Shown piece after piece: positions 2,907-63,459 of a DNA stretch of 64,000 bases; positions within the stretch are counted from its first letter, which is position 1; each line of letters opens with the position of its first letter. This stretch comes from Euborellia annulipes (taxonomy: Eukaryota > Arthropoda > Insecta > Dermaptera > Anisolabididae). The translations under genes were made by a program, and so were the position numbers. The stretch is from assembly GCA_023213315.1 (NCBI GenBank), contig JAKCPI010012755.1:22430-86429 (forward strand). Direction: 5' to 3'. The notes beneath the pieces were generated by a model. The model was not told where the DNA came from. It worked only from the letters and a program-made list of their open reading frames with translations, and made no database searches.

Positions 2907-2940
2907 ATATGTATTTCGACACTAGGTGTGTCTTCTTCTG
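2907..2940 (-). ncRNA. Hammerhead-like motif (degenerate)
   Basis: Minus strand: CAGAAGA (one change from CUGANGA), one extra A, helix II GACAC/GUGUC with loop ACCUA, GAA, then AUACAUAU. A perfect 5-bp helix II is kept although its sequence is unique to this copy. Confidence 0.5.
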
Positions 2941-2963
2941 AAGTTTATACATGAGTTCTATGC

Positions 2964-3233
2964 AGTGGCGGATCCAGAGGAGTTTTTCGGGGGGGGGGTT
3001 AATCTGGTGTAACTGGTCGCACAGCACACAATTTTTTTCTTAATTTCGATAATTTTAAGGTGCATTCTGTAGTTGTTTACCAGAATATATATACAAATCA
3101 AATTTTTAAGTATTAGTTTTTAAAATTTTATATTAAAAACACAATTTTTTTCCAAAAAAAAATATTTTTCTCAAATCTCAGGGGGGGTAATAGCCCCTTT
3201 ACCCCCTCCCCCTTGTATCCGCCCTTGCTTGTG
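2964..3233. mobile_element. hAT-like MITE, GGCGGATCCA termini
   Basis: CAGTGGCGGATCCAGAG at the left and TGTATCCGCCCTTG at the right are imperfect inverted ends, with long G and C runs just inside. The interior, with TCTGGTGTAACTGGTCGC near the left, is shared with 51036-51288. No clean duplication is seen. Confidence 0.65.
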
Positions 3234-3559
3234 TGAATGAATAAAGTTAATAAAACAATTTAAAACAACTACACAACCTAGCGTATAATTTATACACCCT
3301 ATATTAAAGAACCTTAGTAATTTCATACCGGTACCTTTCTGGGCTATAGGGTGTTATTCGTGGAATTAATTTTTTTTGTGGTAATACCCCTGCCTTCGAG
3401 AAAATTAGGAACAAAACTGCTCTTCAATATTACTGAGTGGCACATTTTTTTTTTTTTGTTTTGTCATGCTCTACGCATTTTGCGTGACACATTCAATTTG
3501 CGTCTTAGCTAATTCTTTTAGATAAGTTCTTGGCAATCTTTTGAACTTGGGAATAGGAA

Positions 3560-4022
3560 ACTTAATTGTAAGAGTAGATTCTTAGACCCAGTTGAATCAC
3601 TTCTGATTAACTAGCTATACCTCGGATAAGCTCTGTTGACTATGACTTCGAGAGTCTTTTCACATCTAGGTTAGCTAATCATATGATTCAAAAAGAGCCC
3701 AGATCGTAGTTAACTAGACCCAAAATTCGGTATAAATCTTAAGTAAGGAGTGAAATTAGGAACACAAACCCTGTTTATTTCAATTTTTTTTAGAAATTTT
3801 TAAATTTTTGTTCAAAAATTAATTAACTTAATTAATTATTTTAAATTTTAAAAATTATTCTTTTATTAAGTTGCTAACTTCACAAAATTTTCCTCAGATA
3901 GCTAATTATTTATTGAAAAACTAATCTTTTAACTCGAAGATTAAGCGTGTTCTTGTTTACTATATCGATTATTTGCCATCTGGCGGATAATTTTACTAGT
4001 TGACTAGAACTGAAGCAACCTT
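3560..4022 (-). mobile_element. Dispersed inverted-terminal repeat (family Y)
   Basis: The right end reads, in reverse, GGTTGCTTCAGTTCTAGTCA, and the interior CGATATAGTAAACAAGAACA matches the copy at 33660-34082. That copy has the same terminal sequence at both ends. Likely a non-autonomous DNA transposon. Confidence 0.55.
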
Positions 4023-4047
4023 AATGACAGTAACAGAAGGGAGTGGG

Positions 4048-4108
4048 CAAGGGCGTAACTAGGGGGGCCGGACCCCCCACCCAGCCAAATTTTTTAGTTA
4101 CGCCAATG
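4048..4108. mobile_element. Minimal hAT-like element (61 bp)
   Basis: CAAGGGCGTAACTAGG and TTTTAGTTACGCCAATG form inverted ends around only about 30 bp. They match the terminus of the 45288-45544 element. It looks like an extreme internal-deletion derivative. Confidence 0.45.
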
Positions 4109-4139
4109 GGGGTGGAGCTTGTTCCGTTTTAATGAAGGA

Positions 4140-10412: not shown

Positions 10413-10434
10413 GTGTTTGATTTATTATTTTCTG

Positions 10435-10674
10435 GATTGGAAGAGAGCAAGTACAGGTGCAGCAAATAAAGAGAGCCTTTGGATGCCAAATGCCGAAAAG
10501 GAGACGTTTCAGACAAAATTTTATTCGTCAATGACAACTTTGTGCCTAATTAGATTGTAAGCCTACAAGGACTGAAACGTCTCCTTTTCGGCATTTGGCA
10601 TCCAACGGCTCTTTATTTGCTGCACCCGTTGCTCTTTTCCAATCCATAACATCAACAGCATCTTTTCTTCAGCT
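10435..10674. mobile_element. Inverted-repeat element, 14-bp TSD (hammerhead class)
   Basis: Arms of about 79 bp (to 10510 and from 10570) contain GGAGACGTTTCAG and its inverse CTGAAACGTCTCC. That is the GAAACGUC part of the hammerhead-like motif, but a full core is not preserved. The element is flanked by TTTATTATTTTCTG at 10421-10434 and 10675-10688, an exact 14-bp duplication. Confidence 0.75.
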
Positions 10675-10964
10675 TTTATTATTTTCTGTCTAAATTTACC
10701 ATGTGTACGACTAACGTTGGACAGACCAATTGTTTTAGCATAAAAATCAATGTGTATCCAATGTTACTTCGTTATAGGTTTAACTTTAATTTAATCTTTT
10801 TTTTTCCTGAAATGATTCAATAATTTCTGTAAAAATATGCTGTAAATATGTTCAGTGCATTCTAAATAATATTTTGAGAATAAATGTTTTGTTATATTAT
10901 TCATTATAATGATGCTCTTTACCAGCAGATTAATCGCTCCACCTGACGTCCTTTATTTGACAAA

Positions 10965-10997
10965 TATTTCGACGCATATGACATGCATCATCCTCAG
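10965..10997 (-). ncRNA. Hammerhead-like motif
   Basis: Minus strand CUGAGGA, U, helix II GAUGC/GCGUC (one U-G wobble), GAAAUAU. The partner motif at 11144 has GACGC/GCGUC, so the C-to-U change is tolerated by pairing. Confidence 0.6.
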
Positions 10998-11143
10998 TGC
11001 CGCGAGAATGTAATAGGTGGGCTTGGTCCAAAAATGATTTAAATGCCTTAGGGGCATCATACATGTTTCTTGGGAGGTGCCTTCTTTAAGCTGATGACCG
11101 CTCTGATTCAGAATTGATATTGACCTATTACATCCTCGCGGCA

Positions 11144-11177
11144 CTGAGGATGACGCCTGTCATATGCGTCGAAATAT
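11144..11177 (+). ncRNA. Hammerhead-like motif
   Basis: CUGAGGA (11144-11150), extra U, helix II GACGC/GCGUC (11152-11156 with 11166-11170), GAA at 11171-11173, then AUAUU. All conserved core positions fit the hammerhead consensus except the extra base. Confidence 0.65.
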
Positions 11178-11405
11178 TTGCCAAATAAAGGACGTCAGGT
11201 GGAGCGATTAATCTGCTGGTTGTTATTTACCAACCCCATTACTTTACTCAACTTAGCCTACTATATAACCTGGATGCTCTTTACCTTTGACTAATAAAAT
11301 TGTCTAAAGTTTCCCCATTTTACCGTATCATTGTTTAAATATTTTTGTCTTCTTTCGGCATCTGAGACTATTTAGATCCAATGGTAACTAATAGTCTTTT
11401 TTGTA

Positions 11406-11615
11406 CAGTGAGCGCCACAATTAAGTCCCCACCTGATAGCTAGTACCTTAAGTATATGGTAAATGGTGAAATAATTTTAAATTTGAAAAGGTAAAATAAA
11501 AATCATTTGTACCAGATTTTACGTTTTACCTTTTCGGTCATTAAAATTATTTCATTATACACTATATACTTAAGGCTCTAGCTATCAGGTGGGGACTTAA
11601 TTGTGACGCTCACTG
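11406..11615. mobile_element. mariner-like palindromic MITE, TA duplication
   Basis: CAGTGAGCGCCACAATTAAG and its inverse bound a nearly fully palindromic 210-bp element. It is flanked by TA at 11404-11405 and 11616-11617. Further copies are at 29325-29528 and 63567-63781. TA targets and palindromic structure fit Tc1/mariner MITEs. Confidence 0.85.
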
Positions 11616-12002
11616 TACCTCCTATTTCTATAAAGATTAGTTTAATTAGTGCTTAAACAATGTACAAAAAATAATTGAACTTTTTTTGAATATCAATTTA
11701 ATTTGAGTAGATGCATCTGTTTGCATTCATTTTAGTAAGTGGGAATAGAAATGTTTAATGACTTCATTCCGACGAAATACGCACAGTAAGTAGGTGTGTG
11801 TGTGTGTGTGTGCCCTTGTTTACTTCGCCAACTGACGTATATTAAAAGGAAATTCCGATTCATTTCATTAAAATTTACGCACCAACAAAACTACCCTAAC
11901 TATCATTAAATAAAAAAAAGATACTTTTTCGTTCTGAGGTCATTTCTATTTATTAATTTTTCAAATGAGGATTTAGCGATTAAATAAAAAATAAATGCTC
12001 AC

Positions 12003-16030: not shown

Positions 16031-16877
16031 GTATCGGTAATTCGGCTGAATAGAAAATTATTTCGAGGTCTATATATAGCACAGGATCTAGATAAAATTA
16101 GGAAATAAGTCAATATAATAAGTATTTATGAATTAAATACAATACTGGAAATAATTTATTTACTCTTACTAGTAGGTATTTCACATTTTAAATAATAGCC
16201 ATTATTATTATTTGTTTTCCTCGGTTGATTACCTTAAATTTATAAATAACATATCTTTGTTTAATATATCAAATCTATTGATATAATAAGTAGATGCAAT
16301 TTTAGATCTAAATAGTCAATAGGGCGATTGATTTTAAAAATTTCAATTTTATGTAAATGGTTCCATTTTGATGGATTTCAATCGACAAACGATACCAGGA
16401 TTGTTTAGTTTGTTTCTGGAAGATAGGCAACTCAATCGACATACTATCTAATGAATTTTTTGATTAATAAATCCACTATTAATTTATTTCCTGGTTTTCA
16501 CGATATCAAAGAGAAATTTGAACACTTCGCCCCTCCCCCCTTCCCTCTACGTTCATAATTTTTATAATCACTTCTCAAATTTATTTTGGCTTTTAGTAGT
16601 GATACAATTTTTTTTTATTTTTAGAATTTTAAATTGTTCTCTTCATTTACTAATTTGATTATAATGAATTAATTGTGAAATAATGCGAAATTCACTCTCT
16701 AAATGAGTGGTTTCCAAACTTTTTGTTACAACGCCTCCCTTAAAAATATTTAATCATATGACGCCTCCCCTCCCTCTCCTCATTTTGTAAAATAATACAA
16801 AAACAAACATTTTTTATTAAGGTGGAGTAAAAAAAAAATTCCAAGACATATGCAGCCAAAATTATTTCTTTTATTGT

Positions 16878-16910
16878 GACGTTTCGGCCACTGGTTTAGG
16901 CCATCTTCAG
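16878..16910 (-). ncRNA. Hammerhead-like motif
   Basis: Minus strand CUGAAGA, U, helix II GGCC/GGCC around UAAACCAGU, GAA, self-complementary ACGU, then C. Every position of the proposed consensus is present. Confidence 0.7.
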
Positions 16911-16985
16911 AGCCGGAGGTGAGAATAAATGAAATTTTAACTTTCATTCAAAATTTCATTTAATTTTCATTCAAAATTTCATTCT

Positions 16986-17017
16986 ATGTTTCGGCCACTG
17001 GTTTAGGCCATCTTCAG
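16986..17017 (-). ncRNA. Hammerhead-like motif, tandem copy
   Basis: This repeats the motif at 16878-16910 in the same orientation about 107 bp away. Core and helix II are identical, but helix III ACGU has changed to ACAU, which breaks self-complementarity. Tandem copies are what rolling or dimeric ribozyme elements would leave. Confidence 0.55.
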
Positions 17018-17559
17018 AGCCAGAGGCGAGAGCCTGAGTCATCAGTCATATATGAACCCTGTTATTCAATGGTGTGTCAAAGACCAAAAAATTCAAAATT
17101 GAGTTAAGCATGGAATATTGTTTCAAATGCTTTAATTAATAGTATTTTTTATGAAATATGTCCTAAAAAAATTTATTTTTAATGTAAAAGCATAAAATTA
17201 TTTTTACAATATTTCAATGCAGGATTTTACATTTTTCAATAATGATTTATGTACTTAACATGTTGTTTCGTAATACTTAATTTGAAAAGAACAATTTTTC
17301 ATTTATGCGTCAAGTGCAAGACATCGTAAACAACTATACGCTTGAGATATATTGTTGCGTTTATGCCCTAAGTATTTTCAATTATGAACACCGGCATCGC
17401 TATTGTTTAGAGGTATTTAATATAAACTCAAGAAAATATTAATTTTATTTATTTCAAATTTATATATTCAATACACTATTACTATATTCCATTTGTTCGA
17501 AATTTAATACAAGTATTTCATAGCCTACAAAAATTATCAATAGTTATATTATAATTCAT

Positions 17560-20760: not shown

Positions 20761-21069
20761 TAAAATAAATGGAATGAAACGCGTTAAGTTGCTGCCCATT
20801 AGAACTTAGAACTTTCTTTTTTTTTTTACTAATAAAAGGCCACACTTTTGAAAAAGGGTCGCATTTGCTGTGGTCTGCAAATCCACTGTAGAAGAAAACG
20901 CAGCACCCGTGCAAACGCGGGGCCGGCCCGTCCGGCAAATTGATAACATTCCCTTGAAATTTTGATATTTTTTTTTTTAAAGATTCAATCAAGCGTTTCT
21001 TAAACTTTTAATCTCAGCTACAAAATTAATTAATAAATGTAATTCTATTATTCCTATCTTATGATTGAG

Positions 21070-21399
21070 AAAGTTGTTAATAATTAAACTTGGAGATAAT
21101 TATCACTCCCTCTATAAGTCAACGTTTCGGAGTACTAACGACACCTTCTTCAGGAACATGCGGGGTCAATAATTAAATGTGGCCTTAATATCATCATAAT
21201 ATTGCACATTGATAATAATGATTTCACAGGTGCATATATAACTGAAAGGCAATCCAGCCAGAAAAAGAAAACATTCTTTTATTATGACGAAATTTAATTA
21301 TTGACCCCGCATGGTCCTGAAGAAGGTGTCGTTAGTACTCCGAAACGTTGACTTATAGCGGGAGGATAATTATCTCCAAGTTTAATTATTAACAACCTT
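21070..21399. mobile_element. Inverted-repeat element with hammerhead-like motifs
   Basis: Arms of about 100 bp (21070-21172 and 21295-21399). The plus motif at about 21321-21358 reads CUGAAGA, extra A, a weak helix II starting GGUG and ending CUCC, GAA, ACGU, U. The inverse copy lies at about 21125-21160. Confidence 0.65.
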
Positions 21400-21402
21400 C
21401 TG

Positions 21403-22355: not shown

Positions 22356-22621
22356 TGAATATTTGTTATAGCTGTAGTATTATGTTCAAGATGATAAGGA
22401 ATAAATCCCAAAGAAGAATGCAGCCAAATTTATTTCATTTAATTTTAATAAAAATTCTTAATCACTTGCTGACGTTTCAGTTCGGGTTTGAACCATCATC
22501 GGAGATGTGATGGTTCAAACCCGAACCGAAACGTCAGCAAGTGATTAAGAATTTTTATTAAAATTAAATGAAATAAATTTGGCTGCATTCTTCTTTGGGA
22601 TTTATTCCTTATCATCTTGAA
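22356..22621. mobile_element. Inverted-repeat element, 12-bp TSD, hammerhead-like
   Basis: The arms meet at about 22500; each carries GGTTC AAACCC GAACC (helix II) followed by GAAACGTCAGC. The CUGANGA box is damaged (CCGAUGA on the minus copy). The duplication CAAAATAAAGAT is at 22344-22355 and 22622-22633. Confidence 0.75.
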
Positions 22622-22802
22622 CAAAATAAAGATAATGAAATGCTTAAGTAAACAAGGCGAAGAGTTAATGATTTTCTTATTTTTTGCTGCAAAACTTGGA
22701 GCAATGGCGTAGCTACGGGAGGGGGGGGGGACTCAAGCCAAATTTGCTCTAGCAATCTTGCAATTGTATTGTATTTTAAAAAATAAAATTATTTTCTGAT
22801 GT

Positions 22803-22997
22803 AGTAGAAGGAGGATAAAAAGAGTGAGCAGCTAATTATATTTTCTTTTATGAGGATGGCCCTAAACAGGACCGAAACGTCAGCACTGAGGGTATAATAA
22901 AAGAAAATATAATTAGCTGCTCTCTCTTTTTATTCTCCTTCTACCACATCAATTAATCAGCTATATTAAAAAAAAAAAAAAAACTTCAAATACTAAG
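22803..22997. mobile_element. Inverted-repeat element, 13-bp TSD, hammerhead-like, A-rich tail
   Basis: The arms AGCAGCTAATTATATTTTCT and inverse surround UGAGGA-U-GGCCC/GGACC-GAAACGUC (22851-22881). A poly-A stretch (about 22965-22983) follows. TATTTTCTGATGT flanks it at 22790-22802 and 22998-23010. A-tail plus TSD argues for retrotransposition. Confidence 0.78.
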
Positions 22998-28629: not shown

Positions 28630-28904
28630 TATTTGTTTATTTTAAGCTATATGAGAAAGAGTACAAATACACACTTTGCCACTATTCCTAGTGTCTAAAT
28701 CATGTAAAAAATATATATATATATACTGTATATGTAAAAAAAAAATTTTTTTTATTTTAACAATTTTTCTTCGCGACCCAGAATTTGGGAATCGTTGAGC
28801 TAGAGTGTAGTCATCCAATTCCTCAAGGTTTACTATGAAATTTGCTGTTTTTATAATAATTTGAACCAATTATTTTTCAGAAATTTTATTTGCCGACGAC
28901 TGAT

Positions 28905-28937
28905 AAAGTTTCAGTCATTCAATGTGACCATCATCAG
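28905..28937 (-). ncRNA. Hammerhead-like motif with canonical CUGAUGA
   Basis: Minus strand CUGAUGA, extra U, helix II GGUCA/UGACU (one G-U), loop CAUUGAA, GAA, then ACUUUAUC. Helix III is not the usual ACGU. Confidence 0.55.
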
Positions 28938-29029
28938 GCTTGGAATATATCAAAATTTTTTAAAAAGATGGATAAATATGGGCAGGAGCAGCCAATAAAT
29001 AGACTCTGTATGCAGGTTCAATCTCCGGA

Positions 29030-29066
29030 GACGTTTCAGTTCCTTTTATTTAAGAACCATCTTCAG
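29030..29066 (-). ncRNA. Hammerhead-like motif
   Basis: Minus strand CUGAAGA, U, helix II GGUUCU/GGAACU, GAA, ACGU, C. Confidence 0.65.
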
Positions 29067-37665: not shown

Positions 37666-37971
37666 TAAGATTTAAACTTTCGACCGTTGGTTCTCGTTGG
37701 AACATTTTGTAAATTAAAATTAAATATACAAATTAAACACTAGGTTATTTGTTTCAAAGGTTTTATTAATTAAAAATTAACACTTGATACGTATTTCGAC
37801 AATTCCTTGTCATCATCAGAAGTGATTATTAGAATGAAATCACTGTCATTGATGTCACTGTCCGATGATGACAAGGAATTGTCGAAATACGTATCAAGTG
37901 TTAATTTTTAATTAATAAAACCTTTGAAACAAATAACCTAGTATTTAATTTGTATATTTAATTTTAATTTT
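37666..37971. mobile_element. Inverted-repeat element, 12-bp TSD, canonical hammerhead core
   Basis: Arms of about 115 bp with ACACTAGGTTATTTGTTTC and inverse. TAATATAGAAAG occurs at 37654-37665 and 37972-37983. A half copy lies at 52824-52935. The minus-strand arm carries an intact CUGAUGA core. Confidence 0.82.
37786..37819 (-). ncRNA. Hammerhead-like ribozyme motif, most canonical copy
   Basis: On the minus strand: CUGAUGA (complement 37813-37819), extra U, helix II GACA/UGUC (37808-37811 with 37798-37801) around AGGAAU, GAA (37795-37797), an 8-nt perfectly self-complementary AUACGUAU (37787-37794), and C at 37786 as predicted cleavage base. The plus-strand arm copy has CCGAUGA instead and is probably inactive. 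Confidence 0.72.
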
Positions 37972-46895: not shown

Positions 46896-47009
46896 GACAG
46901 ACCATGTCGCGAAAACTACTTTTTTGGATTCAGAGGACCTCAAAACGTGAAGATCCATCAAAATCTCGACATCGAATTTTTGACATGAATCCAATACTTT
47001 CTCTCTATA

Positions 47010-48577
47010 CCGGGTGGGCCAATAGTGCGTGGACGGAAGATTGTGGGCTTATTAACGGACATTTTTAAAATTTGTTGATCGCACATAATGTGGGGCCTTT
47101 AGGGCTACAAATTAAAAATATTTTTGTTCCAATTGCACCTCATATACAGGGTGGTCCATATCAAAGTTATGTTTTTTTAAATGGAACGCCCTGTATATTA
47201 TTGCATATTTGGATTCTACGGCCAATTTTAGTATGAGTTTATGTCATGCAATGTATTCCAAACCAAACCGTTTAGCCGCAAATCGAGCTTTAGTGAAAAA
47301 ACTGCTGTCTGGAAAAAATTGAATATCTCGCGAACCATAAATCTTAGGGGACTGTTCTTTTGTGAGGTTACTATCCATGAAATGTACTAATGTAGGCCAG
47401 ATGGGGAACCCGGAATTATTCTTATGTTGGGAGAAATGGCCATGCCAATTTGCAAAATTTCAATCATGGATAACTTCATTTTTTCAAATGGAACATGCTA
47501 CTTTTTTTTATGCCATGGGACGTGAAATTTAATTATCTTTCAGCTGATATAAGGTTGTCTATATCTATCTTTGGTAGTTTTCCTTTTATTCCAAAATATC
47601 TGATAACGAAAAAAAACATTTTTTATTATAGACAAAATAATTGAAAAAAAAATCCAAACGCAAAACAAATTTGTAATAAATGGACAAATTATGCTAAATA
47701 TTCGAAAATGTCTTTAAATTTCCCTTAAAATCATTTATTAGAACTTCTCAAAGAAGTCCCGCTTGCTCAAATACGGGTTATGATTTGTCAACAAGATGGC
47801 GCACCTCCTAACCTGAACATAACCCTAATTTCTTTTTCGAGAAGTTCAAATAAATGATTTTAAGGGAAATTTAAAGACATTTTCGAATATTTAGCATAAT
47901 TTGTCCATTTATTACAAATTTGTTTTTGCGTTTGGGTTTTTTTTCAATTATTTTGTCTATAATAAAAAATGTTTTTTTTCGTTATCAGATATTTTGGAAT
48001 AAAAGGAAAACTACCAAAGATAGATATAGACAACCTTATATCAGCTGAAAGATAATTAAATTTCACGTCCCATGGCATAAAAAAAGTAGCATGTTCCATT
48101 TGAAAAAATGAAGTTATCCATGATTGAAATTTTCCAAATTGGCATGGCCATTTCTCCCAACATAAGAATAATTCCGGGTTCCCCATCTAGCCTACATTAG
48201 TACATTTCATGGATAGTAACCTCACAAAAGAACAGTCCCCTAAGATTTATGGTTCGCGAGATATTCAATTTTTTCCAGACAGCAGTTTTTTCACTAAAGC
48301 TCGATTTGCGGCTAAACGGTTTGGTTTGGAATACATTGCATGACATAAACTCATACTAAAATTGGCCGTAGAATTCAAATATGCAATAATATACAGGGTG
48401 TTCCATTTAAAAAAACATAACTTTGATATGGACCACCCTGTATATGAGGTGCAATTGGAACAAAAATATTTTTAATTTGTAGCCCTAAAGGCCCCACATT
48501 ATGTGCGATCAACAAATTTTAAAAATGTCCGTTAATAAGCCCACAATCTTCCGTCCACGCACTATTGGCCCACCCGG
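47010..48577. mobile_element. 1.57-kb near-perfect palindrome (foldback transposon)
   Basis: The left arm 47010-47749 and right arm 47839-48577 are inverted copies of about 740 bp with an 89-bp spacer. Ends CCGGGTGGGCCAATAGTG and inverse are flanked by TA. Sub-terminal TACAGGGTGGTCC/GGACCACCCTGTA repeats are present. The spacer encodes a transposase fragment. Confidence 0.88.
47750..47838 (+). pseudogene. Transposase fragment in palindrome loop
   Basis: One frame reads VMICQQDGAPPNLN. QQDGAPPH is the conserved block around the second catalytic Asp of Tc1/mariner-type transposases (Asp codon at 47795-47797). About 30 residues only. Confidence 0.65.
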
Positions 48578-48729
48578 TATATATTTACATTTATATAGAG
48601 GTAAGAGAAAGTAAAAAAGTGTGAGTGTTAAAAAAAATAAAGAATTTCTTAGAGACATTGGAATAGATCTAGATTCAATAATGCCTCAAGTTAAGTGATT
48701 GTTTCACCCAGAGTTTCATTTTTCTCTAT

Positions 48730-51462: not shown

Positions 51463-52823
51463 GTGTTTTCCACTTGTGATTATTTCATTTTTTTTTTAAT
51501 TTTTTTTTTAATAGAAACTTTCATGGTTCAAACCTAGAAAATTTCCAATAAAGATTTTCATTTTCTTTTATAAAAACAATGAAATAATCACAATTAGAAA
51601 ACGCATGGGTGGGACTTAATATTGACCCTCACTGTACCTTACTATCGGAAACTAAATATCGCCTGCTGAGAGTCCTAGCGGCCAAAGTTCGAAAATTCAA
51701 TTTTTGAGTTAAGCCTAGCAATCGTAGGTTAAAACGTTTTTTCTTTTTTTGAGATCCCAAGTGGCGAAAAGATATTTCCATTCTTTGCTATGGTTCTTGC
51801 CTATTCATTTGTTGCCTGCACAGCCCCCCTGTTGGTAAATTTGCCCCCCCCCCCCCCCCGCTGAGAATAAACTAGCGCCGTCACTGTTCTAGAGCCAATT
51901 TTCTTAGCAAAATATATTGCCGAAGGACCTTTTAGTCTTTCCTCAAATGTATCTACAGGGGTGTGTAATGTAATTTTTACATTACCGATCCATTGGACAA
52001 TATTAGGGGGGTCGATCTCACACCATCGCTTCGTTAAAAAATATTTAAATTTGTAAACTCATTTAAGGGGCGATGATCCCTCCCAGTAAATCCGCGAACA
52101 AAAAAAGGAATACGCATCAAAGAGTAACTAACATTTAGGCAAGTTTTTAAAAATAAACTTTGACTTCCTGATCTATAAAAAAAATAAATTCTAATTAGCA
52201 AAAACTCAAACATGTTTCTTTAATTTAAGGTCTGTTTCTTGATTTTATTCATAGAAAAATTGTCATAATCCATTTGAATGGAACAACAACAGCCGCCGTG
52301 TTCGTCTGAATTGAAAATAAACCAAGGAAGCGAAGCATAGATGAGCAAACATTTAAATTTTGGCAGCCAGAGCTGGCTGCCTGTGTCTAAAATAATCCTC
52401 ACCAATTTAATTTCATTTTAGGGTCATTTTGTCTGGAATTCACTTCTTAATGAACATATTAATTAGCAATATCCTAAGGGTAATGAAATTGTGTCAGATT
52501 TTCAACGAAGATTGATGAGTCAGGAGGGGAATTTTCAAAAAGTCAAAATATCTAGCATCTTTCTCTTTATTAGCATCCATCACAACATAACATTGTAAAT
52601 GTTGTATAAATATCTGCAGAAGGATTGCTTTTAGATTTTCTTGGCAAATAACCACCGGGAAGGGAGCTATATTTAAAAGAAAATAAAAAAAATTGATGTT
52701 TTTTAAGATATTAAATTTCTTACATCTTCTCACTTTATAAATTTAAATAAATTGCTTCATTTTAATTTCATCCCCCTATAGGTGAAAATTTAAGTTAAAA
52801 TTGCAAAGAGTAGTGTGGCTTCT

Positions 52824-52935
52824 GACGATGACAAGGAATTGTCGAAATACGTTAATTTTTAATTAATAAAACCTTTGAAACAAATAACCTAGTGTTTAAT
52901 TTGTATATTTAATTTTAATTTTAATTAATTTAATC
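52824..52935 (+). repeat. Half copy of hammerhead-type element
   Basis: CTGACGATGACAAGGAATTG, TCGAAATACGT, then AATAAAACCTTTGAAACAAA as in the right arm at 37866-37970. The core is CUGACGA (variable position 7 = C), helix II GACA/UGUC, GAA, AUACGU. Single arm only. Confidence 0.65.
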
Positions 52936-53026
52936 TTTCTAGCTCAATTCCTTCATGCTTTAAAGACAGACATCGAATTTTTGACATGAATCCAATACTT
53001 TCTCTCTCTATATATTAACATATATA

Positions 53027-53448
53027 ATAAAACAAGACTTCTTGTCGGCCCAAATTATTTAATTTTCCTCTGTCGACGTTTCGGGGACTAAACGTCACCC
53101 ATCTTCAGGACCTAAATTACAAGCAATACATATAATGTATTATTTTTTTTCTATATAATACACATCAATCACACTCAACAGAGAAAAAGCCATAGAGCTA
53201 GGAATTTTTTAACACCTTTTTAAGTAAATTTATAATGCCTTTCTGTCTGTTGAGTGTGTATTATATAGAAAAAAAAATAAAAATAATTCTGGTTATATGT
53301 ATTGCTTGTAATATAGGTCCTGAAGATGGGTGACGTTTAGTCTCCAAAACGTCGACAGAGGAAAATTAAATATTAATTCGGGCCGAAAAGAAGTTTTGTT
53401 TTATTTCGTCTTCAATCTGTATTACGGCCTTCCTCCACATTGTCTTTG
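53027..53448. mobile_element. Inverted-repeat element, 10-bp TSD, two hammerhead-like motifs
   Basis: The arms run from ACTTCTTGTCGGCCC to ACAGAGAAAAAG and inverse. AACATATATA is at 53017-53026 and 53449-53458. The minus motif 53075-53108 is intact (CUGAAGA, U, GGG/CCC-based helix II, GAA, ACGU, C). The plus motif near 53322-53355 has AAAACGUC, losing the essential G12. Confidence 0.75.
53075..53108 (-). ncRNA. Hammerhead-like motif
   Basis: Minus strand CUGAAGA, U, GGG-U-GAC pairing GUC-CCC with one bulged U, GAA, ACGU, C. Confidence 0.6.
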
Positions 53449-55251: not shown

Positions 55252-56545
55252 TGTTTTTACTTTCTCTTACCTCTATATATGTTAATATATGTATATAGAG
55301 AGAAAGTATTGGATTCATGTCAAGAATTCGATGTCGAGATTTTGACGGATATACACGTTTTGAGGTCCCCTGAATCCAAAAAATCTGGTGTGACTGGCGC
55401 ACAGCACACAACTTTCTCTTACCTTCGGTAATCGAAAGTTGTGTACTGTGCTTGTCACACCAGATTTTTTGTGTCGACATGTATTTAGTTCCCGGCAGTA
55501 GGGAATATTTGAATTCAGATGTAAAATTTATAAGTATGGGGAAAATATTTATATTTTGTTACCATGGCAACCATTTCTCCTATCTTTCCTATGAAGCACA
55601 AGAGTAAAGTGTGCTTCAAACAATTTTGAGAGCAAAACGAGAATATACATTTGAAAGAGCATCTAAAAAATAATTGATTTTTGAATTTTAATTAAAATTG
55701 TTAGAGCAAATTTTGAGAAAATCGAAAAAAACTGAAAAAGTACATCAGTAAAGTACTAGTACTCTTTGGCCGATTTTGATTAAAAGCTTATTTTTCCGGT
55801 CCCGGGGGGTGTTTAACTTAAATATAAAATTTCAGCCTCATAGCTCAATTCCTTCATGCTTAAAATTTGACACACACCCACCACCACACACAGACGACCA
55901 TGTCGCGAAAACCACTTTTTTGGATTCAGGGGCCTCAAAACGTGAAGATCCATCAAAATCTCGACATCGAATTTTTGACATGAACAATACTTTTCTCTAT
56001 ATATATATTACATATATACATAGGTAGAGAAGTAAAAAGTGGTTAAGCGACATGGTCTGTCTGTGGGTGTCTGTGAACAAAATATCTCAAGAACGAAAAG
56101 AGCTAGGAGGTTGAAATTTTATATATAAGTTAGACACCCCTCTGGGATGTAACAAGAAGCTTTTGAACAAAATCCGCCAAAGAGAGGGGGGCTACTAATA
56201 CTTTTCTGATGTACTTTTTCAGTTTTTTTTTATTTTCTCAAAATTTCCTCTAACAATTTTGATTAAAATTCAAAAATCAATTAATTTTTAGATGCTCTTT
56301 AAAATGTATATACTCATTTTGTCCTTTAAATCTTCTAAAGACCACTTTCCTCTTGTACTTCATAGGAAAAATAGGATAAATGGTTGCCATGGTAGCAAAA
56401 TATAAATATTTTCCCATACTAATAAATTTTGAATTCTATTATATCGGCGGAAACTAAATACATCACGACACAAAAAATCTGGTGGGACAAGCACAGAACA
56501 CAACTTTCGAATACCGAAGGTAAGAGAAAGTTGTGTGCTGTGTAG
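55252..56545 (+). mobile_element. Family X copy with a second family X nested inside
   Basis: The plus copy starts with the TTTACTTTCTCTTACC hairpin (55252), is broken at GAATCCAAAAAA (about 55380), resumes at AGTGGTTAAGCGACATGG (about 56035) and ends at 56545. The insert is a minus copy (55380-56034). Confidence 0.7.
55380..56034 (-). mobile_element. Family X copy nested in family X
   Basis: It starts with the AAATCTGGTGTGACTGGCGC hairpin, contains GTTACCATGGCAAC (55558-55571) and AAAGTACTAGTACTCT, and ends at ACATAGGTAGAGAAGTAAAA. Inserted in the A run of its host copy. Confidence 0.7.
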
Positions 56546-56737
56546 TCATAAATATTCAACAATTTGAACAACAAAAACGAAACTATTTCTCTCTTTCGAG
56601 TTCAATAGTTTTACTTTTTTTTTATTATAGGTCTATTTTTTATTATAATAAAACCTCTTGTCCATGTGAAAAATGTTTAAAATTTCTTTATAGATCTTTT
56701 TTTTCTACCTAAGATGGCTTTAAGCTTAAAAGTATAT

Positions 56738-56878
56738 TCGGCATCTTAGGCCATATAGGCTTTTAACAATACATATTATTTAGAAACGACACCGTATATT
56801 AGGTAGGCCAAGCACATAGGCCTACCATTTGGTATCCAAATAATTTAAATAAATTAATCGGACTGCCTGAGATTTGAG
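56738..56878 (-). repeat. Degenerate SINE1
   Basis: CGGCATCTTAGGCCATATAGG, CCATTTGGTATCCAAATAATTT and TCGGACTGCCTGAGATT in SINE1 order. The B-box is lost. Confidence 0.5.
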
Positions 56879-56995
56879 AATATTAATATTGACATTTCTC
56901 AACACCTCCAACCTTCGGCCATAGGGGGGGGGGGGAATAAAATTATATAAGAGAGTGGCCCTAAAAGTTGGTAGCCTAATTTTTCTTCTAATTAG

Positions 56996-57562
56996 TTTTT
57001 ACTTTCTCTTACACATATATGTTAATATATGGTATATACAGAGAGAAAGTAAAATTGGAATCATGTCAAAAATTCGAAGTCGAGATTTTGGTGGATATAT
57101 ACGTTTCGAGGTCCCCTGAATCCAAAAAAGTTGTTTTGCGCGACATGGTCTGTGTGTATGTGTGTGTGTATTTAATTTAAATCGTGAAGGAATTGAGCTA
57201 GGAGGTTGAAATTTTATATTTAGGTTAGGCACCCCTTGGGACGTGACACGAAACTTTTGAATGAAATCGGCCAAAAAGTACTAGTTATTTTTTAGTTTTT
57301 TTAAAATGTATATTCTCATTTTGCCGTTGAAATTTTTTGAAGCCCACTTTACTCTTATACTTCATAGAAAAGATAAGATTGTAACAAACTATAAATATTT
57401 TCACATGTTTATAAATTTTATACCTTTAATTCGAATATATCGGCGAAAACTAAATATATCTCGACACAAAAAAATCTGGTGTGTCAAGCACAGAACACAC
57501 CTTTCGATACCGAAGGTAAGAGAAAGTTGTGTGCTGTGCGACCATCACATCAGATTTTTTTT
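56996..57562 (+). mobile_element. Family X copy
   Basis: Left hairpin ACTTTCTCTTACACATATAT and right hairpin ending CATCAGATTTTTTT. Internal deletions in the ACTAGT and X-box regions. Confidence 0.7.
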
Positions 57563-57739
57563 TTTAATTTAGTCTCAAAATTTGGGTTCTCTTATAGCTG
57601 CATTTTAATTAATAATCATTTACATATATTGCTAAGCGTGAATATCCATGGCGCTGTTGCCTCTATGTTCCTTTTCGAAGAAGCCTCCCCTTTGAAAGAT
57701 GGCCAAAAACTTTGTCACATATTCAGATAATTAAATAAA

Positions 57740-58700
57740 ATAAATATTAAACTGTCAAATCCTTTTAAATTATTCTCTCACCACCTTATTGTGTTTTGTA
57801 AGTCATGTTTTTACTTAGCTCAGTCAATACGAAGCCAAACTTTTTGTTTGTCTTTCGACGTATCGAAGGAACATATTGTAGTATCTCCTATCCGATATTA
57901 TTTACGATAATTGTTTTTAGTTAATATTATTTAAATTAATATAATTAAACAACTCTTAGTTAATGGAGCAAGAGTTTTATTTATGTTTAACCTTTGAGTT
58001 ATACTGGTATATTTATACTAAAGTAGAGCTATTTGTTTTTAAAAGCATAACATACAAAATATATCATTTTGTTTAATTTATTTCATTTTAAACGATTATA
58101 AATACAGGACGTCTAAGGAATTTTGAAGACTAATTAATGACTCGACATGTTTTCCATCGTTCATTAGAAAGGTTCTTTTGAAATTCAAACGATGGTGATT
58201 TGATTAGAAAATTTCTATAATTGACTAAATAATTCGTAAGCCTATTATTTTTTATAGGGTGCTCTCGAAGTAATTTGATATATTAGAATATAACGAGAAG
58301 TTCGAAAATACCATAAATGGTTCCCTTAATATATCAGAATTGTTTCCTGGCTTCCTAAAGCCAAAACATTGTTATCTGTCAAATTAACTCCGTCAACTAC
58401 TGTAAATATAATACAGTCGATAATAGTAGCCTGATTATTCTTCGTATAAACTTGCCGGTTCCCTGAGAAAATCCCGATAAATGATATAAAAACATGCATT
58501 TCAGTCCTTCGGTAATTCGTATTATTTTTATGCTCGAGGTCACTTAAAACGTCTTATAATTCGTATTTTCCAGCTCGTTAATTCATAGGGGGAAGGAGAG
58601 ACAAGTTCTTCTCTTTCGTTCGTAATCTTTTTATTGATAGAAAATGAGGAGATGAGAGACGGAAATTGCGCTTTGTGCTATTTAAGTTATATTCTTAAAT
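57740..58700. other. AT-rich intron, nothing recognised
   Basis: No repeats of the window's families, no coding frame, no RNA gene seen. Unique intron sequence by default. Confidence 0.5.
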
Positions 58701-58707
58701 CATACTA

Positions 58708-59253
58708 TATAAAAATCTGGTGTGACTGGCGCACAGCACACAACTTTCTCTTACCTTCGGTAATCGAAAGTTGTGTTCTGTGCTTGTCACACCAGATTTT
58801 TCGTGTCGACATATATTTAGTTTCCGACAGTACTGAACAATTGTATTCACTATGTAAAATTTATGTATGGGAAAATATTTATATTTTGTTACCATGGGAA
58901 CCATTTCTCCTATATTTTCTATGAAATACCAGAGTAAAGTGGTCTTCAGAAGATTTCAATCGCAAAATGAGAATATACATTTTAAAGAGAATCTAAAAAA
59001 TAATTGATTTTTGAATTTAAAAAAAAATCGTTGGAGCAAATTTTGAGAAAATCGAAAAAAACTGAAAAAGTACATCGGTAAAGTACTAGTACTCTTTGGC
59101 CGATTTTGTTCAAAAGCTTCGTGTCACGTCCCATGGGGGGTGCCTAACTTAAATATAAAATTTCAACCTTCTAGCTCTTTTCGTTATTGAGATATTTTGT
59201 TCACAGACAGACACACACACAGACACACAGACAGACCATGTCGCGAAAACCAC
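58708..59253 (-). mobile_element. Family X copy
   Basis: Right-end hairpin at 58710-58802 and body to CCATGTCGCGAAAACCACTT, where it abuts a plus copy. The X-box is GTTACCATGGGAAC. Confidence 0.72.
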
Positions 59254-59948
59254 TTTTACTTTCTCTTACCTATGTATATATGTAATATATATATATATAT
59301 AGAGAAAGTATTGGATTCATGTCAAAAATTCGATGTCGAGATTTTGATGGATCTTCACGTTTTGAGGTCCCCTGAATCCAAAAAAGTGGTTTTCGCGACA
59401 TGGTCTGTCTGTGTGTGTGTGGGTGTGTGGGTGTGTGTGTGTGTGGTGTGTCTGTGTTCAATTTTAAGCATGAAGGAATTGAGCTATGAGGCTGAAATTT
59501 TATATTTAAGTTAAACATCCTCCTGGACCGGAAAAATAAGCTTTTAATCAAAATCGGCCAAAGAGTACTAGTACTTTACTGATGTACTTTTTCAGTTTTT
59601 TTCGATTTTCTCAAAATTTGCTCCAACGATTTTTTTTTAAATTCAAAAATCAATCATTTTTTTAGATGCTCTTTTAAAATGTATATTCTCATTTTGCGAT
59701 TGAAATCTTCTGAAGACCACTTTACTCTTGTATTTCATAGGGAAGATAGGAGAAATGGTTGTCATGGTAACAAAATATAAATATTTTCCCATACTTATAA
59801 ATTTTACATCTGAATTCATATGTTCCGTACTGTCGGGAACTAAATACATGTCGACACGAAAAATCTGGTGTGACAAGCACAGTACAGAACTTTCGATTAC
59901 CGAAGGTAAGAGAAAGTTGTGTGCTGTGCGCCAGTCACACCAGATTTT
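59250..59948 (+). mobile_element. Family X copy, both ends present
   Basis: Starts TTTACTTTCTCTTACC, (AT)n hairpin, GAGGTCCCCTGAATCC, GT microsatellite (59410-59452), GTTGTCATGGTAAC, right hairpin ending GTCACACCAGATTTT. Confidence 0.78.
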
Positions 59949-60437
59949 ACTTTCTCATACCCTATATATGAAATATATAGAGAGAGAAAGTATTGCGATC
60001 ATGTCAAAAATTCGATGTCCAGATTTTGATGGATATACATGTTTTGAGGTCCCCTGAGTCCAAAAAAAGTGGGTCCCGCAAATTGGTCGTGTGTGTGTGT
60101 GTGTGTATGTATGTCTGTGTGTGTGGACAGATTTTTAGCATGAAGGAGTTGAGCTAGCGGATTGAAATTTTATATTTAACTTAGGTACCTTTGAAGAATC
60201 TCAAAATAAGCTTTTGAACAAAATCGGCCAAAAAGTACTAGTACTTTACTGATGTACTTTTTCAGTTTTTTTCGATTTTCTCAAAATTCCCTCCAAGGAT
60301 TTTTTTTAAAATTCATAAATGAACTATTTTTTAGATGCTCTTTAAAATGTATATTCTCATTTTGCCGTTGAAATCTTCTGAAGACCACTTTACTCTTGTT
60401 CTTCATAAGAAAGATAGAAATGGTTGCCATGGTAACG
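59944..60437 (+). mobile_element. Family X copy, 3'-truncated
   Basis: Begins TTTACTTTCTCATACCC immediately at the end of the previous copy. It carries an intact GTTGCCATGGTAAC (60423-60436), then leaves the family. Confidence 0.72.
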
Positions 60438-60849
60438 GAATTTAAATCTTTTTCTTTTTATTAGATTAAAAATCAATTATTATTTAAATTCCCATTTTTT
60501 TTAATTTATTTGTGCCTTTAATTGTTTCAAAGAAAACATATATGTCTCTCTCTCACTTGCAAACATTATCGTCTCTCTCTACTCTTTTTAAATTCCCTTT
60601 CCACCTTATCTTCGCATAGGAACAATGTTAATTTCCTATAGGGATTTGTATGTTAATTTAGATTCAAAAGGGGGTCCCCTTTAGAACTTTTTAGGCATTT
60701 AAAATTTTTTTTCCAATTCTTATGAAATTTTGTATTTATTTACGAATCTATATTGTGTATAAAATGTCCAAATATGAGATTAAAATTTTGAAAAATAACC
60801 ATAGTTTATTTGAAGCAGTCAACATTTAAAATGCAAGTTTGAAACTAAG

Positions 60850-61088
60850 GTGCTATCGGAAACTAAATATATCTCGACACAAAAAATCTGGTGTGACCAG
60901 CACGGTGCGCAACTTTCTCTTACCGAAGGGTAAGAGAAAGTTGTGTGCTGTGCGCCAGTCACACCAGATTTTTGGATTCAGGGGACCTCAAAATTTGAAG
61001 ATCTATCAAAATCTCGACATCGAATTTTTGACATGAATCCAATACTTTCTCTCTATATATTTCATATATAGGGTAAGAGAAAGTAAAA
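60850..61088. mobile_element. Two family X ends joined
   Basis: A plus right-end hairpin (60855-60975) is followed directly by a minus left end (GGATTCAGGGGACCTC...GGTAAGAGAAAGTAAAAA). It looks like an internal deletion or a second nested copy. Confidence 0.6.
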
Positions 61089-61379
61089 ATTATTTTAAAT
61101 ATTATTTTTAATAATGATGGCCTTTGCATTGTTTAAAATTTCAAACAAAACGCTTCATTTGTTTATTCTTTTCTTTTCTTCTTTCTATATTCTTTGCTGT
61201 CAAATTCGTAGTCTCTTGCTCTCTTGCAATTCTGACGTTTATTTTTCGTGTTCCGTCTCCTCACTTCAAAATCAATTTGAAAATTCACTTCTCGAATGGT
61301 GAGTTGTCGAATTTATAATTTATAAATATCCAAATAATAAATATTTCGATAAGAAATAGAAATATATTATAATTTATTA

Positions 61380-61442
61380 GGTTGAAGTGGCCGTTCCCAG
61401 AGAGGGAACACACTTAGGCCAATCTGAGGGCCCTTTGTGATA
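61380..61442 (-). mobile_element. 5'-truncated SINE3 with 14-bp TSD
   Basis: GTTGAAGTGGCCGTTCCC...CCCTTTGTGAT is the 3' end of SINE3. ATTATAATTTATTA is at 61366-61379 and 61443-61456. Only 63 bp was inserted, with one TTAGG unit at most. Confidence 0.78.
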
Positions 61443-62149
61443 ATTATAATTTATTAAATTTAATCTTATTATACATGTAGGCCTATATTTATTTTCAAAA
61501 TTTTCAAACACAAAATTCTTATTAATATCTAATTATTTTAATATTAAGCCTCTTTGTATTTCTTTGGAAAGGAATTTGCTATAAACAATTGTTTAAAAAA
61601 TCGTTTAATTTTATATACTTTTATGTATGTTATGTATAACCTATATACAGGTTACCTTCTAGTTTGAATTGCATTAGGAGTGAATAAATATTTAAAAAAT
61701 ATTCATTCATACAGGAAGGTATTTACACTTTATTCAATTTAGAGGTTATGTAATTGACAGATATGCAATATGAAGATAGCCTTGAATTATTGTCAATATT
61801 AATAATAATTGTGATCTGAATAATAATAATTTTTTATTATATCATAACAATTAGTTTTTTTTTTTACACTAAAATTATTTAAATATCAAATAAAAAATTT
61901 GAATTCAACTTTATGTTAATTATACATTTATAGATTATTTTTTTTTAATAACATTTAGAAAACCTAAGAATGCTGAGAATATTTACTTTCCCTTCTCATT
62001 TTCATACCCTGATTTTTTTCATTCCCTTTAATTAATTATAACATCTCTTTGGCTTTTGCCTCAGGGCCCGGGCCCTTTGCGCTTCAGCCTTAAAATTCTA
62101 ATAAAAAATAATTTAGCGAGGCGAATAGCTGAATCAGTATGTAGTAGAA

Positions 62150-62475
62150 AATAAAAGGCCCAGCAGCTATGTTAATTTCTTTATTTAAGAACCCACAGCG
62201 ACGTTTCGGTCGACTATGCGACCATCTTCATGGCTAGAGTTCAGTCAACAGAATAAACCTCTTAAGTTCTTTGACAGACATTTCATAAAATACATTACGA
62301 TCTATCATATAATATATATTTAATAATGCATTCAGCGCCAGTCAACTTAAGAGGCTTTTCTGTTGACTGAACTCTAGCCATGAAGATGGTCGCATAGTCG
62401 ACCGAAACGTCGCTGTGGGTTCTTAAATAAAGAAATTAACATAGCTGCTGGGCCTTTATTTTCTACTACATTAAA
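62150..62475. mobile_element. Inverted-repeat element with two hammerhead-like motifs
   Basis: Ends TGTAGTAGAAAATAAAAGGC and inverse CCTTTATTTTCTACTACA. Motifs at 62200-62230 (minus) and 62380-62411 (plus) share helix II GGUCG/CGACC. In both, the first core base C is A (AUGAAGA). A poly-A stretch follows on the right. Confidence 0.72.
62380..62411 (+). ncRNA. Hammerhead-like motif, C3 changed
   Basis: AUGAAGA, U, GGUCG/CGACC with loop CAUAGU, GAA, ACGU, C. C3 is essential in known hammerheads, so it is probably inactive. Confidence 0.55.
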
Positions 62476-62732
62476 ATTTCAATTAAAAAAAAAAAAATAA
62501 ATAAGAGAAAGTAAAAATAATTTTCTTGAAATTTTTTCCTGATGAGGCCCCCCTTTAAGCTCAAATCGTAAAATTATAATTAAAAAAGATATAATTTTCT
62601 TGAACTTCTATGTGTCAGAACAGTTTATCAAAGATGTTCTAAACAGGGGAAACAGAATTAACGAAGTATTCTGATTTGGAATCTATAATTGACATTTCTG
62701 CATATCTCAAGGCGAGGAGAGTAATTTTATAA

Positions 62733-63270
62733 AAATCTGGCGTGACTGGTAGCACAGCACACAACTTTCTCTTACCTTCGGTTATCGAAAGTTGTGTTCT
62801 GTGCTTTCACACCAGATTTTTTTTGTGTCGAGATATATTTATTTTCCGACAGTACAGTACATTTGAATTCAATATATAAAATTTATAAACATGGGAGAAT
62901 ATTTATATTTTGTTAACTTGGCAATCATTTCTCCTATCTTTATTATGAAATACAAGAGTAAAGTGGTCTTCAAAAGATTTCAATGGCACAATGGGAATAT
63001 ACATTTTAAACAGCATCTAAAACCAATAATTGATTTTTGAATTTTTATCAAAATCGTTGGAGCTAATTTTGAGAAAATTGAAAAAAACTTAAAAAGTACA
63101 TCAGTAAAGTACTAGCACTCTTTGGCCTTTTTTGATTAAAATCTTATTTTCACGCCTCCTAACTCCTTCATGCTTTAAATTGAACCCAGACAGACCATTT
63201 TGCGAAAACAACTTTTTTGTATTCAGGAGACCTCAAAACGTGTATATCCGTCAAAATCTCGACAACCCTT
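62733..63270 (-). mobile_element. Family X copy
   Basis: Right-end hairpin at 62736-62825, AGTAAAGTACTAGCACTC, GGAGACCTCAAAACG. The left hairpin is missing. Confidence 0.7.
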
Positions 63271-63432
63271 CCCCAGATTAGATTATCTTTCCAATTATAA
63301 TGTCTATTTAAAAATTTTATTCTTGTTAAGAGATTATCTTCTTTTTCCAAAATTAAATACATACATTTCAGGCGTTGTTCAATCTGAGGTTTATTTTGCT
63401 TATTTATTAATAATATTTACGTAATTACAGAC

Positions 63433-63459
63433 CTGAAGATGGTTTTGTAAACTGAAACC
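63433..63459 (+). ncRNA. Hammerhead-like motif, partial
   Basis: CUGAAGA, U, helix II GGUUU/AAACU around UGU, GAAAC. The ACGU helix III is absent. Confidence 0.4.

Follow-up and report, generated by a model that had tools for sequence, protein, structure and literature searches.

Why does a stretch of the Euborellia annulipes genome with a single stop-to-stop frame of at least 150 residues carry, time and again, a short motif that resembles the core of a hammerhead ribozyme? The question is posed by a window of 64,000 nucleotides (bases 22430-86429 of contig C9262, in an assembly of 903 Mb and 25,949 contigs) that is AT-rich, with a GC content of 24-40% across 2-kb steps. An earlier note on this DNA had listed 12 sites that share CUGANGA, one extra base, a short stem and GAA, and had read them as hammerhead-like RNAs with a covarying helix II. 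The motif is indeed present at all 12 coordinates, and we consider it very probable that these motifs are minimal hammerhead ribozymes lying at the ends of Penelope-like retroelements (PLEs). The unit, as read from the sequence, runs from helix I through CUGANGA, an extra U or A, helix II, GAA, a palindrome and H17 back to helix I, with a hairpin starting roughly 50-85 nt after A9. An insertion consists of two such ends placed head-to-head, often between direct repeats of 10-15 bp; commonly one arm breaks off some 95 nt beyond A9, while its partner continues through the 3' half of the hairpin, the “tail”.

The frequency of the motif and the fixed spacing of its parts argue for a real feature. 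CTGANGA occurs 44 times in the window against 17.1 expected. When we scanned for strict sites (CTGANGA, x bases between A9 and helix II, 4 bp or more in helix II itself, and GAA), ten were found at x=1, none at x=0 and one each at x=2, 3, 4 and 5, whereas 100 dinucleotide shuffles gave means of 0.18-0.28 for x=0-2 (0.18 being the figure to set against the ten real sites) and a maximum of 2, and seven scrambled cores gave 0-1 sites at each x from 0 to 3. The combined sample of 304 kb consists of the window and 24 further 10-kb stretches of the assembly, of which L005-L009 were taken since their contigs carried the motif, L004 adjoins the window, and the other 18 were picked by contig number alone; L001-L003 are excluded from the counts because they are already covered by L006, L007 and L009. 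Over this sample there are 30 strict sites at x=1, none at x=0 and one at x=2, and the reversed sequence has none. A noisier scan that allows one mismatch returns 54 sites at x=1 but only 4-7 for any other value of x, with 0-4 in reversed sequence. All six strict sites in the 18 number-picked stretches have x=1, and of 33 distinct sites retrieved with no stem imposed, 11 can form a helix II of at least 4 bp at x=1, whereas none can do so at x=0, 2, 3 or 4. The core is short and the scan permissive, so that chance matches in AT-rich DNA were the obvious concern; given ten sites against 0.18 in shuffles, and 30 against none in reversed sequence, chance is already refuted for the set as a whole. 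Individual relaxed sites look like chance matches (window 26702, 44885 and 9137; L014 1094 and 2103; L007 142 and 3309; L017 8827), and weak or relaxed sites such as window 63433, 26702 and those in L014 may be chance as well.

The motif is also widespread. A covariance model of 43 positions, built from 16 copies of the motif, has 55 matches at E≤0.01 over the 304 kb, the 16 training copies included. Twenty of these, seven of them training copies, fall in the 180 kb of number-picked stretches, or about one per 9 kb, which suggests by rough extrapolation from 18 stretches that the genome holds copies of the order of 100,000. One pattern search of the whole assembly gave three matches. In the window, the list of sites drawn up in the earlier note leaves out 21153(-)/21317(+), 22502(-), 22850(+), 33895(+), 37862(+), 52822(+) and 53320(+), some of which may be among the “weaker ones” to which it alluded.

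Features that played no part in retrieval provide the strongest indication that the motif is a hammerhead. Families were collected by their core, helix II and GAAA, a single mismatch being tolerated, leaving the palindrome (beyond its first A), nucleotide 17 and helix I unused. A palindrome (ACGU, AUACGUAU, AUAU and the like) nevertheless stands immediately 3' of GAA in 17 of 32 families, compared with 3.7 in shuffles, or 4.0 with the first base kept, and 1-5 at other offsets. In these 17 palindrome families nucleotide 17 is C in 12, A in four, U in one and never G. When the end of the palindrome is taken as U16.1, which fixes the register, the 17 families together have 56 bp in helix I; moving to any of six neighbouring registers leaves 8-13 (p=0.0002 by partner swap). 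Helix I is short in many copies, and examples include TAATCGTC/GACGATTA in L005, AGCC/GGCT in L015, GGCT/AGCC in L018, CACTT/AAGTG at 37819 and AACTT/AAGTT at 2940. An alignment of 16 copies from the ACGT class, hand-chosen by the analyst, has a covariation score of 0.492 that none of 500 shuffles reach, with slid controls at no more than 0.182, and its helix I pair 2.1/1.1 is CG in seven copies, UA in four, AU in three, UG in one and unpaired in one. An unconstrained cofold of the 37819 dimer gives exactly two hammerheads, with a helix I of 5 bp in trans, a helix II of 5 bp in cis and a helix III of 8 bp in trans. Because the palindrome, nucleotide 17 and helix I fall in register and covary although they were unused in retrieval beyond the first A, we regard the predicted hammerhead fold, with the covarying helix II that had been proposed, as well supported. 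The helix III envisaged at first, a 2-bp palindrome of the dimer-dependent type, proves right in kind; its length varies, and the 37819 family has the 8-nt palindrome AUACGUAU.

The base between A9 and helix II had been regarded as unusual and as the possible mark of a variant class. Among 17 strict families, which were retrieved regardless of its identity, it is U in 12, A in five and never C or G, and among 15 one-mismatch families it is U in seven, A in seven and G in one. Of the 55 model matches, 53 could be typed, two partial ones being omitted; after setting aside five of the 53 that have at least two core mismatches (U in two, A in two, G in one), the remaining 48, whose cores mismatch at no more than one position, show U in 37 cases and A in 11, a count made with a model itself built from such copies. 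Forcing the extra base into a helix II pair lowers the covariation score of the alignment to 0.370, and the pair never forms. In nearly all copies one U or A stands between A9 and the 10.1-11.1 pair, which would be expected directly after A9. We do not take this as excluding the motifs from the hammerheads, because natural ribozymes that bear such an insertion are counted as members in published accounts (PMC3705267, PMC10085705). In the plus-strand hammerhead of Chrysanthemum chlorotic mottle viroid (CChMVd), as described in PMC3705267, an additional A lies between A9 and G10.1, its change to U makes trans-cleavage 3-4 fold faster, and its change to C or G is strongly harmful. This order of preference, U better than A and C or G bad, matches the U or A found in 17 of 17 strict families here, although the viroid RNA has loop-loop contacts and belongs to no retroelement.

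The same insertion recurs in viral contigs. Patterns with GG..CC stems were found in 50, 24 and 16 IMG/VR contigs at x=0, 1 and 2, and stems of at least 4 bp in 21, 16 and none of these. In the 16 contigs with such stems at x=1, several of which are near-duplicates, the extra base is U in 14, C in one and G in one. By eye, a number of them resemble full hammerheads with an intramolecular helix III, such as L032 (helix I CCCGT/ACGGG), L036, L044, L049 and L050, in which CUGAUGA and a helix II of the form GG..CC are separated by an extra U like that of the Euborellia motifs, and L039, which has an extra C. They differ from our motifs in that helix III looks intramolecular and helix I is in the palindromic register in none of the 16. 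Because CChMVd and the IMG/VR motifs share the insertion, the extra base is a recurrent hammerhead variant, mostly U in the viral contigs, and the extra U or A probably does not define a new class.

The arrangement of the copies points to what they belong to. Of the 30 strict copies, 25 are accompanied by an inverted partner no more than about 800 nt away (detected by BLAST over at least 30 nt), two are direct tandem copies and three are single; in the window and the number-picked stretches alone, 10 of 15 are inverted. This pairing was overlooked by the earlier note. In the window the pairs form coding-free insertions of 226-380 bp. We compared 16 pairs, one of which (L009 657/680) duplicates another (L006 4458/4485). 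The shared part of the arms ends 89-109 nt after A9 in 10 of the 16, across unrelated families, and after 24-86 nt in the others; the distance from C3 to C3 is 14-234 nt in 14 pairs. Direct repeats of 10-15 bp lie at the outer edges of nine pairs, while repeats of at least 10 bp occur in only 1.9% of size-matched random windows. Many families have, downstream of the hammerhead, TTGGCTGCA or a near match to it, then a CT-rich stretch, with ACAGCCA on one arm only where it is seen. The resulting hairpins are TGGCTG/CAGCCA or, in other families, TAGCTG/CAGCTA, GGGCCG/CGGCCT and TTGAAACA/TGTTTCAA, with loops of about 30-45 nt. By script, the conserved 3' half of the hairpin is present on one arm only in nine of 16 pairs, or eight when the duplicate is removed: 29066/29123, 53108/53320 and 62231/62380 in the window, those of L005 and L015, L006 1110/1331 and 4458/4485, and L009 6172/6407. 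A one-arm tail can also be discerned by eye in L004 9368/9524 and window 37819/37862. Inner junctions vary within a family in both cases compared (the 37819 family in the window and L004, the 22378 family in the window and L007), and because same-family copies differ in this way, each insertion event seems to generate its inverted pair afresh.

Judged from sequence, this anatomy matches that published for PLEs: inverted pseudo-long terminal repeats (pseudo-LTRs), a tail on one of them, and a target-site duplication of variable length, with direct repeats of at least 10 bp in nine of 16 pairs. In the rotifer Adineta vaga, Penelope elements are described with direct and inverted pseudo-LTRs, target-site duplications of 8-10 bp, an optional 31-bp tail on one inverted pseudo-LTR, and palindromic junctions (PMC3846280). 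Most of those structures frame an open reading frame (ORF) or host DNA according to the same account (PMC3846280), whereas no long ORF is seen in the pairs described here. The Poseidon element of Anolis carolinensis (PAc) is a second close parallel (PMC11167929): its ORF opens at hammerhead stem II, a stem-loop 111-118 bp inside the ORF is where reverse transcription is initiated, alike on both strands, and its tail is the stretch between two start sites. It differs in having an AC-rich loop where ours are CT-rich or AT-rich, in a long ORF not seen here, and in a hammerhead reported to need protein to cut, being inactive without it; hammerhead mutants still inserted in vitro (PMC11167929). Minimal hammerheads of the dimer type are known from PLEs (PMC7761336, PMC6155905, PMC7229834), and those described by Lünse et al. 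(2017), among other sources, resemble the present motifs in their core, short or absent helix III, action as dimers, dispersal in thousands of copies in animals and association with PLEs (PMC7761336, PMC6155905). Ours depart from these in being mostly inverted rather than tandem and, for one class, in having as many as 4 bp in each half of helix III (AUACGUAU). The link to PLEs that had been suggested thus holds for the anatomy of the insertions, but not by way of a linked PLE gene.

How might such pairs arise? In the scheme that we regard as best supported, the PLE protein would begin reverse transcription inside the hairpin, probably once per target strand, and the two short cDNAs would then be joined head-to-head. 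Where the core of a source element is intact, its palindromic helix III may pair two RNAs, or two tandem copies within one RNA, into an active dimer that would cleave after nucleotide 17 and so process the source PLE RNA, perhaps with protein help as for the Anolis element. The extra U or A would be tolerated or even helpful, by analogy with CChMVd. According to this scheme selection would have acted on the source elements; most dispersed copies would be inert by-products, their ribozyme buried in the long hairpin that read-through RNA from an inverted pair is expected to form.

Several observations weigh against this interpretation. No PLE gene was found beside any motif, and our own motif scan of the 304 kb found no GIY-YIG-like match; the only PLE-like reverse transcriptase noticed in the sample is a decayed one at the start of contig C2500 (L018:150-716, FSLDVINLFPSIP ... 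YYIQIDGSPMGG), recognised from its motifs and with no Pfam match. A palindrome after GAA is missing in 15 of 32 families, some of which are chance matches. In the hand-chosen alignment the outer two helix I pairs are mostly unpaired (13 of 16 and nine of 16 copies), and two of five measures, the number of pairs changed on both sides and the number of pair types, fail to beat shuffles. The minimum-energy folds of the other four dimers (29123, L005, L015 and L006) are not hammerheads, nor is that of the isolated 29115-29240 unit. Six of the 16 pairs have no direct repeat, and a seventh has one of 8 bp only, as found in 9% of random windows. The 3' hairpins are not individually significant, and in four pairs a higher-scoring, unconserved helix lies on the other arm; our argument from the hairpins rests on their recurrence with compensating changes, not on the significance of any single one. 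Finally, one family has A at the C3 position in each of the four copies observed (window 62231 and 62380, L024 7610, L008 4407), and C replaces U4 in seven matches (three in L009, two in L007, window 22502 and L027 8356). That core changes run through whole lineages has slightly lowered our confidence in the assignment to PLE hammerheads.

Changed cores are seen at a number of sites in the window. C3 is altered in both copies of the 62-kb pair (ATGAAGA), at 22850(+) (ATGAGGA) and at 33895(+) (TTGAGGA), U4 is altered at 22502(-) and 37862(+) (both CCGATGA), and the core at 2940(-) is CAGAAGA. The palindrome is decayed at 17017(-) (ACAU) and 28937(-) (ACUUU), and helix II of the 53-kb pair is just 3 bp (GGG/CCC). 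Lineages with A3 or C4 mostly retain helix II and the ACGU palindrome. The source elements of such lineages probably did not cleave themselves. Moreover, the transcript of the 28966-29223 pair, the single element that was folded, is predicted to form one long hairpin of -190 kcal/mol, compared with -28.7 for the isolated 126-nt unit, and folding of this kind makes it probable that most dispersed copies are inert. The idea that each scattered copy is itself a selected RNA accordingly finds little room, with an inverted partner in 25 of 30 strict copies and one long hairpin from the sole such element folded. For the same reasons, the covariation was most likely laid down in source elements and not in the dispersed copies.

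Other explanations can be measured against the same evidence. That every scattered copy is a working regulatory ribozyme selected in place is very improbable: several cores are intact and their helices still complementary, yet 25 of 30 strict copies are inverted-paired, C3 or U4 is altered in many, and the one element folded is far more stable as a hairpin (-190 kcal/mol for 28966-29223) than as a unit (-28.7). Scarcely more credible is a derivation from DNA transposons, in which the inverted pairs would be miniature inverted-repeat transposable elements (MITEs) and the motif a terminal binding site that happens to resemble a hammerhead. The inverted-repeat shape, the size of 226-380 bp in the window, the lack of coding sequence and, in seven of 16 pairs, the want of any direct repeat reaching 10 bp would all suit such elements. 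MITEs have short target-site duplications of fixed length and identical inverted ends, whereas here the direct repeats vary from 10 to 15 bp in nine of 16 pairs, the arm ends are unequal, the conserved 3' half of the hairpin is on a single arm in nine pairs and the inner junction varies within a family; a binding site would also leave unexplained a covarying helix I in the register set by the palindrome. There is, likewise, only a slight chance that the copies represent retrozymes, a kind of non-autonomous circular-RNA retroelement whose tandem repeats contain type I hammerheads. Hammerheads accompanied by retro-type direct repeats would fit, as would the direct arrangement of 16910 and 17017, 107 nt apart, but metazoan retrozymes are described as tandemly repeated units, each about 150-450 bp long, that bear canonical type I hammerheads (PMC7229834), and only two of the 30 strict copies here are tandem while 25 are inverted.

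Within the assignment to PLEs, the question is whether one cDNA or two gave rise to each pair. Snap-back self-priming of a single cDNA was proposed for the rotifer Penelope from its palindromic junctions (PMC3846280). We think it doubtful as the origin of the present pairs, as their arms end at two different sites, with and without the tail, where a snap-back would be expected to give identical ends on both arms, and as the flanking repeats are direct rather than inverted; the Anolis protein, in addition, is reported to start alike on top and bottom strands (PMC11167929). Two initiations therefore remain our preferred origin of the pairs. A further alternative, which we rate as unlikely, is that the palindromic helix III serves chiefly to hold two template RNAs together rather than for self-cleavage. 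Two PLE RNAs would dimerise head-to-head through their hammerheads, each 3' hairpin, about 95-125 nt away, would engage a single reverse transcriptase working on one of the two strands of the cut target, and the resulting cDNAs would come together close to the paired hammerheads. Our search identified pairs by similarity and would have overlooked mixed-family pairs, which such an arrangement would allow.

The elements of the window illustrate these features in varying states of preservation. The head-to-head pair at 28966-29223 has arms that are 94% identical and a 14-bp direct repeat, ATTTTTTAAAAAGA, at 28955 and 29253, which we read as a target-site duplication. Its putative minus-strand hammerhead (29025-29071, C3 at 29066) has an extra U, helix I GGA/UCC, helix III ACGU and C17, and its plus-strand counterpart (29118-29164, C3 at 29123) an extra U, a helix II of 7 bp and the same helix I, GGA/UCC. 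The 3' hairpin of the plus strand (29195-29239) pairs TGGCTG with CAGCCA around a 33-nt loop within which the other arm of the pair ends; its 3' half would be the PLE-like tail, and taken alone it has p=0.155. The copy at 28905-28942 on the minus strand (C3 at 28937) belongs to an older inverted pair, 28817-29637, which encloses the 28966-29223 pair and is also interrupted by an unrelated inverted-repeat element at 29321-29532. The latter is one of three copies in the window (with 11403-11618 and 63563-63785) of a palindromic MITE-like element whose ends resemble TGTACAGTGAGCGCCACAATTAAGTCCCCACC, and this copy breaks the plus-strand hammerhead of the older pair.

The best candidate for an intact dimer in the window is the motif at 37781-37824 on the minus strand (C3 at 37819), with helix I CACUU/AAGUG, helix II GACAA/UUGUC, helix III AUACGUAU, C17 and an extra U. 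It lies in the head-to-head pair at 37711-37970, which is flanked by the 12-bp direct repeat TAATATAGAAAG at 37654 and 37972, and its plus-strand partner at 37857-37900 has the core CCGATGA; a single copy of the same family stands at 52817-52860(+) (C3 at 52822). The pair at 10921-11220 has arms 96% identical and a direct repeat of just 8 bp, which is at chance level. Its candidate motifs are at 10959-11002(-) (C3 at 10997), with helix III AUAU, U17 and a helix I of 4 bp including one G-U, and at 11139-11182(+) (C3 at 11144), with helix I GGCA/UGCC. The near-perfect palindromic pair at 22378-22628 has arms 98% identical about a 9-nt centre, and the 12-bp direct repeat CAAAATAAAGAT at 22344 and 22622; its minus-strand motif (22466-22507) has the core CCGATGA, and its plus-strand copy is truncated within the hammerhead. 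At 53026-53405, motifs at 53070-53113(-) and 53315-53358(+) have helix I GUC/GAC and a helix II of 3 bp, the plus arm carries the hairpin GGGCCG/CGGCCT, and the 10-bp direct repeat AACATATATA is found at 53017 and 53449. Direct repeats were not found for two further pairs, one at 21068-21401, whose motifs at 21116-21158(-) and 21312-21354(+) have an extra A, and one at 62139-62471, whose motifs at 62195-62236(-) and 62375-62416(+) both have C3 changed to A and whose minus arm bears the hairpin ATAGCTG/CAGCTAT.

The remaining copies are tandem, solitary or decayed. The only two direct copies, 107 nt apart, lie on the minus strand at 16873-16915 (C3 at 16910), with helix II GGCC/GGCC and a weak helix I of 1 bp, and at 16981-17022 (C3 at 17017), where helix III has decayed to ACAU. 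A hammerhead-like motif at 2895-2945(-) (C3 at 2940) has an extra A, helix II GACAC/GUGUC, and helix I AACUU/AAGUU after an imperfect 8-nt palindrome, with the core CAGAAGA. A changed copy with the core TTGAGGA lies at 33890-33931(+) and a partial copy with the core ATGAGGA at 22849-22882(+). An inverted-repeat element of similar build at 10427-10652 has GAAACGTCTCC in its arms, no intact motif, and the 14-bp direct repeat TTTATTATTTTCTG at 10421 and 10675. Three other repeats are of a different nature: a near-perfect inverted repeat of 1.58 kb at 47006-48581 (about 95.5% identity), in which no hammerhead motif turned up in the relaxed scan; a densely packed group of palindromes and inverted repeats with common units at 55254-61088, apparently a separate repeat family; and an inverted pair at 1695-2056 that is 75% alike, contains tRNA-like GGTTCGGACCCC stretches and possibly represents head-to-head short interspersed elements.

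The search against Rfam that the earlier note had called for does not help to decide the matter. No hammerhead family reaches its threshold in the window or in 14 loci, and none appears at E=10 in the window, yet 15 viral contigs picked for hammerhead-like matches give none at threshold either, so that the negative outcome is uninformative. A lenient search of eight viral loci, six of them among those 15, returned three sub-threshold hammerhead-family matches, and only one of these, in L063, lies at the motif. The extra-U motifs of L032, L036, L044, L049 and L050 are among those that fall short of the Rfam gathering thresholds. The Rfam microRNA model MIR7533 matches the palindromic hammerhead pair at 22408-22598 with E=7e-21, below the gathering score, which is probably an artefact of the long hairpin.

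The role of PLE hammerheads has been called a mystery (PMC7761336), and this genome offers many families that allow the insertion ends to be examined jointly with the hairpin, the palindrome, the core and the extra base. The extra U or A ties these motifs to measured viroid biochemistry, and the same variant is found in viral contigs. For annotators there is a caution in that the Rfam hammerhead models miss these motifs. The motifs also provide a testable link between a dimer-forming palindrome and the inverted structure of PLE insertions. If the palindrome does act by holding two templates together, this would explain at once the inverted pairs, the position of the junction near the hammerhead, the unequal ends of the arms, the retention of a palindrome rather than a looped helix III, and the spread of lineages in which C3 or U4 has changed.

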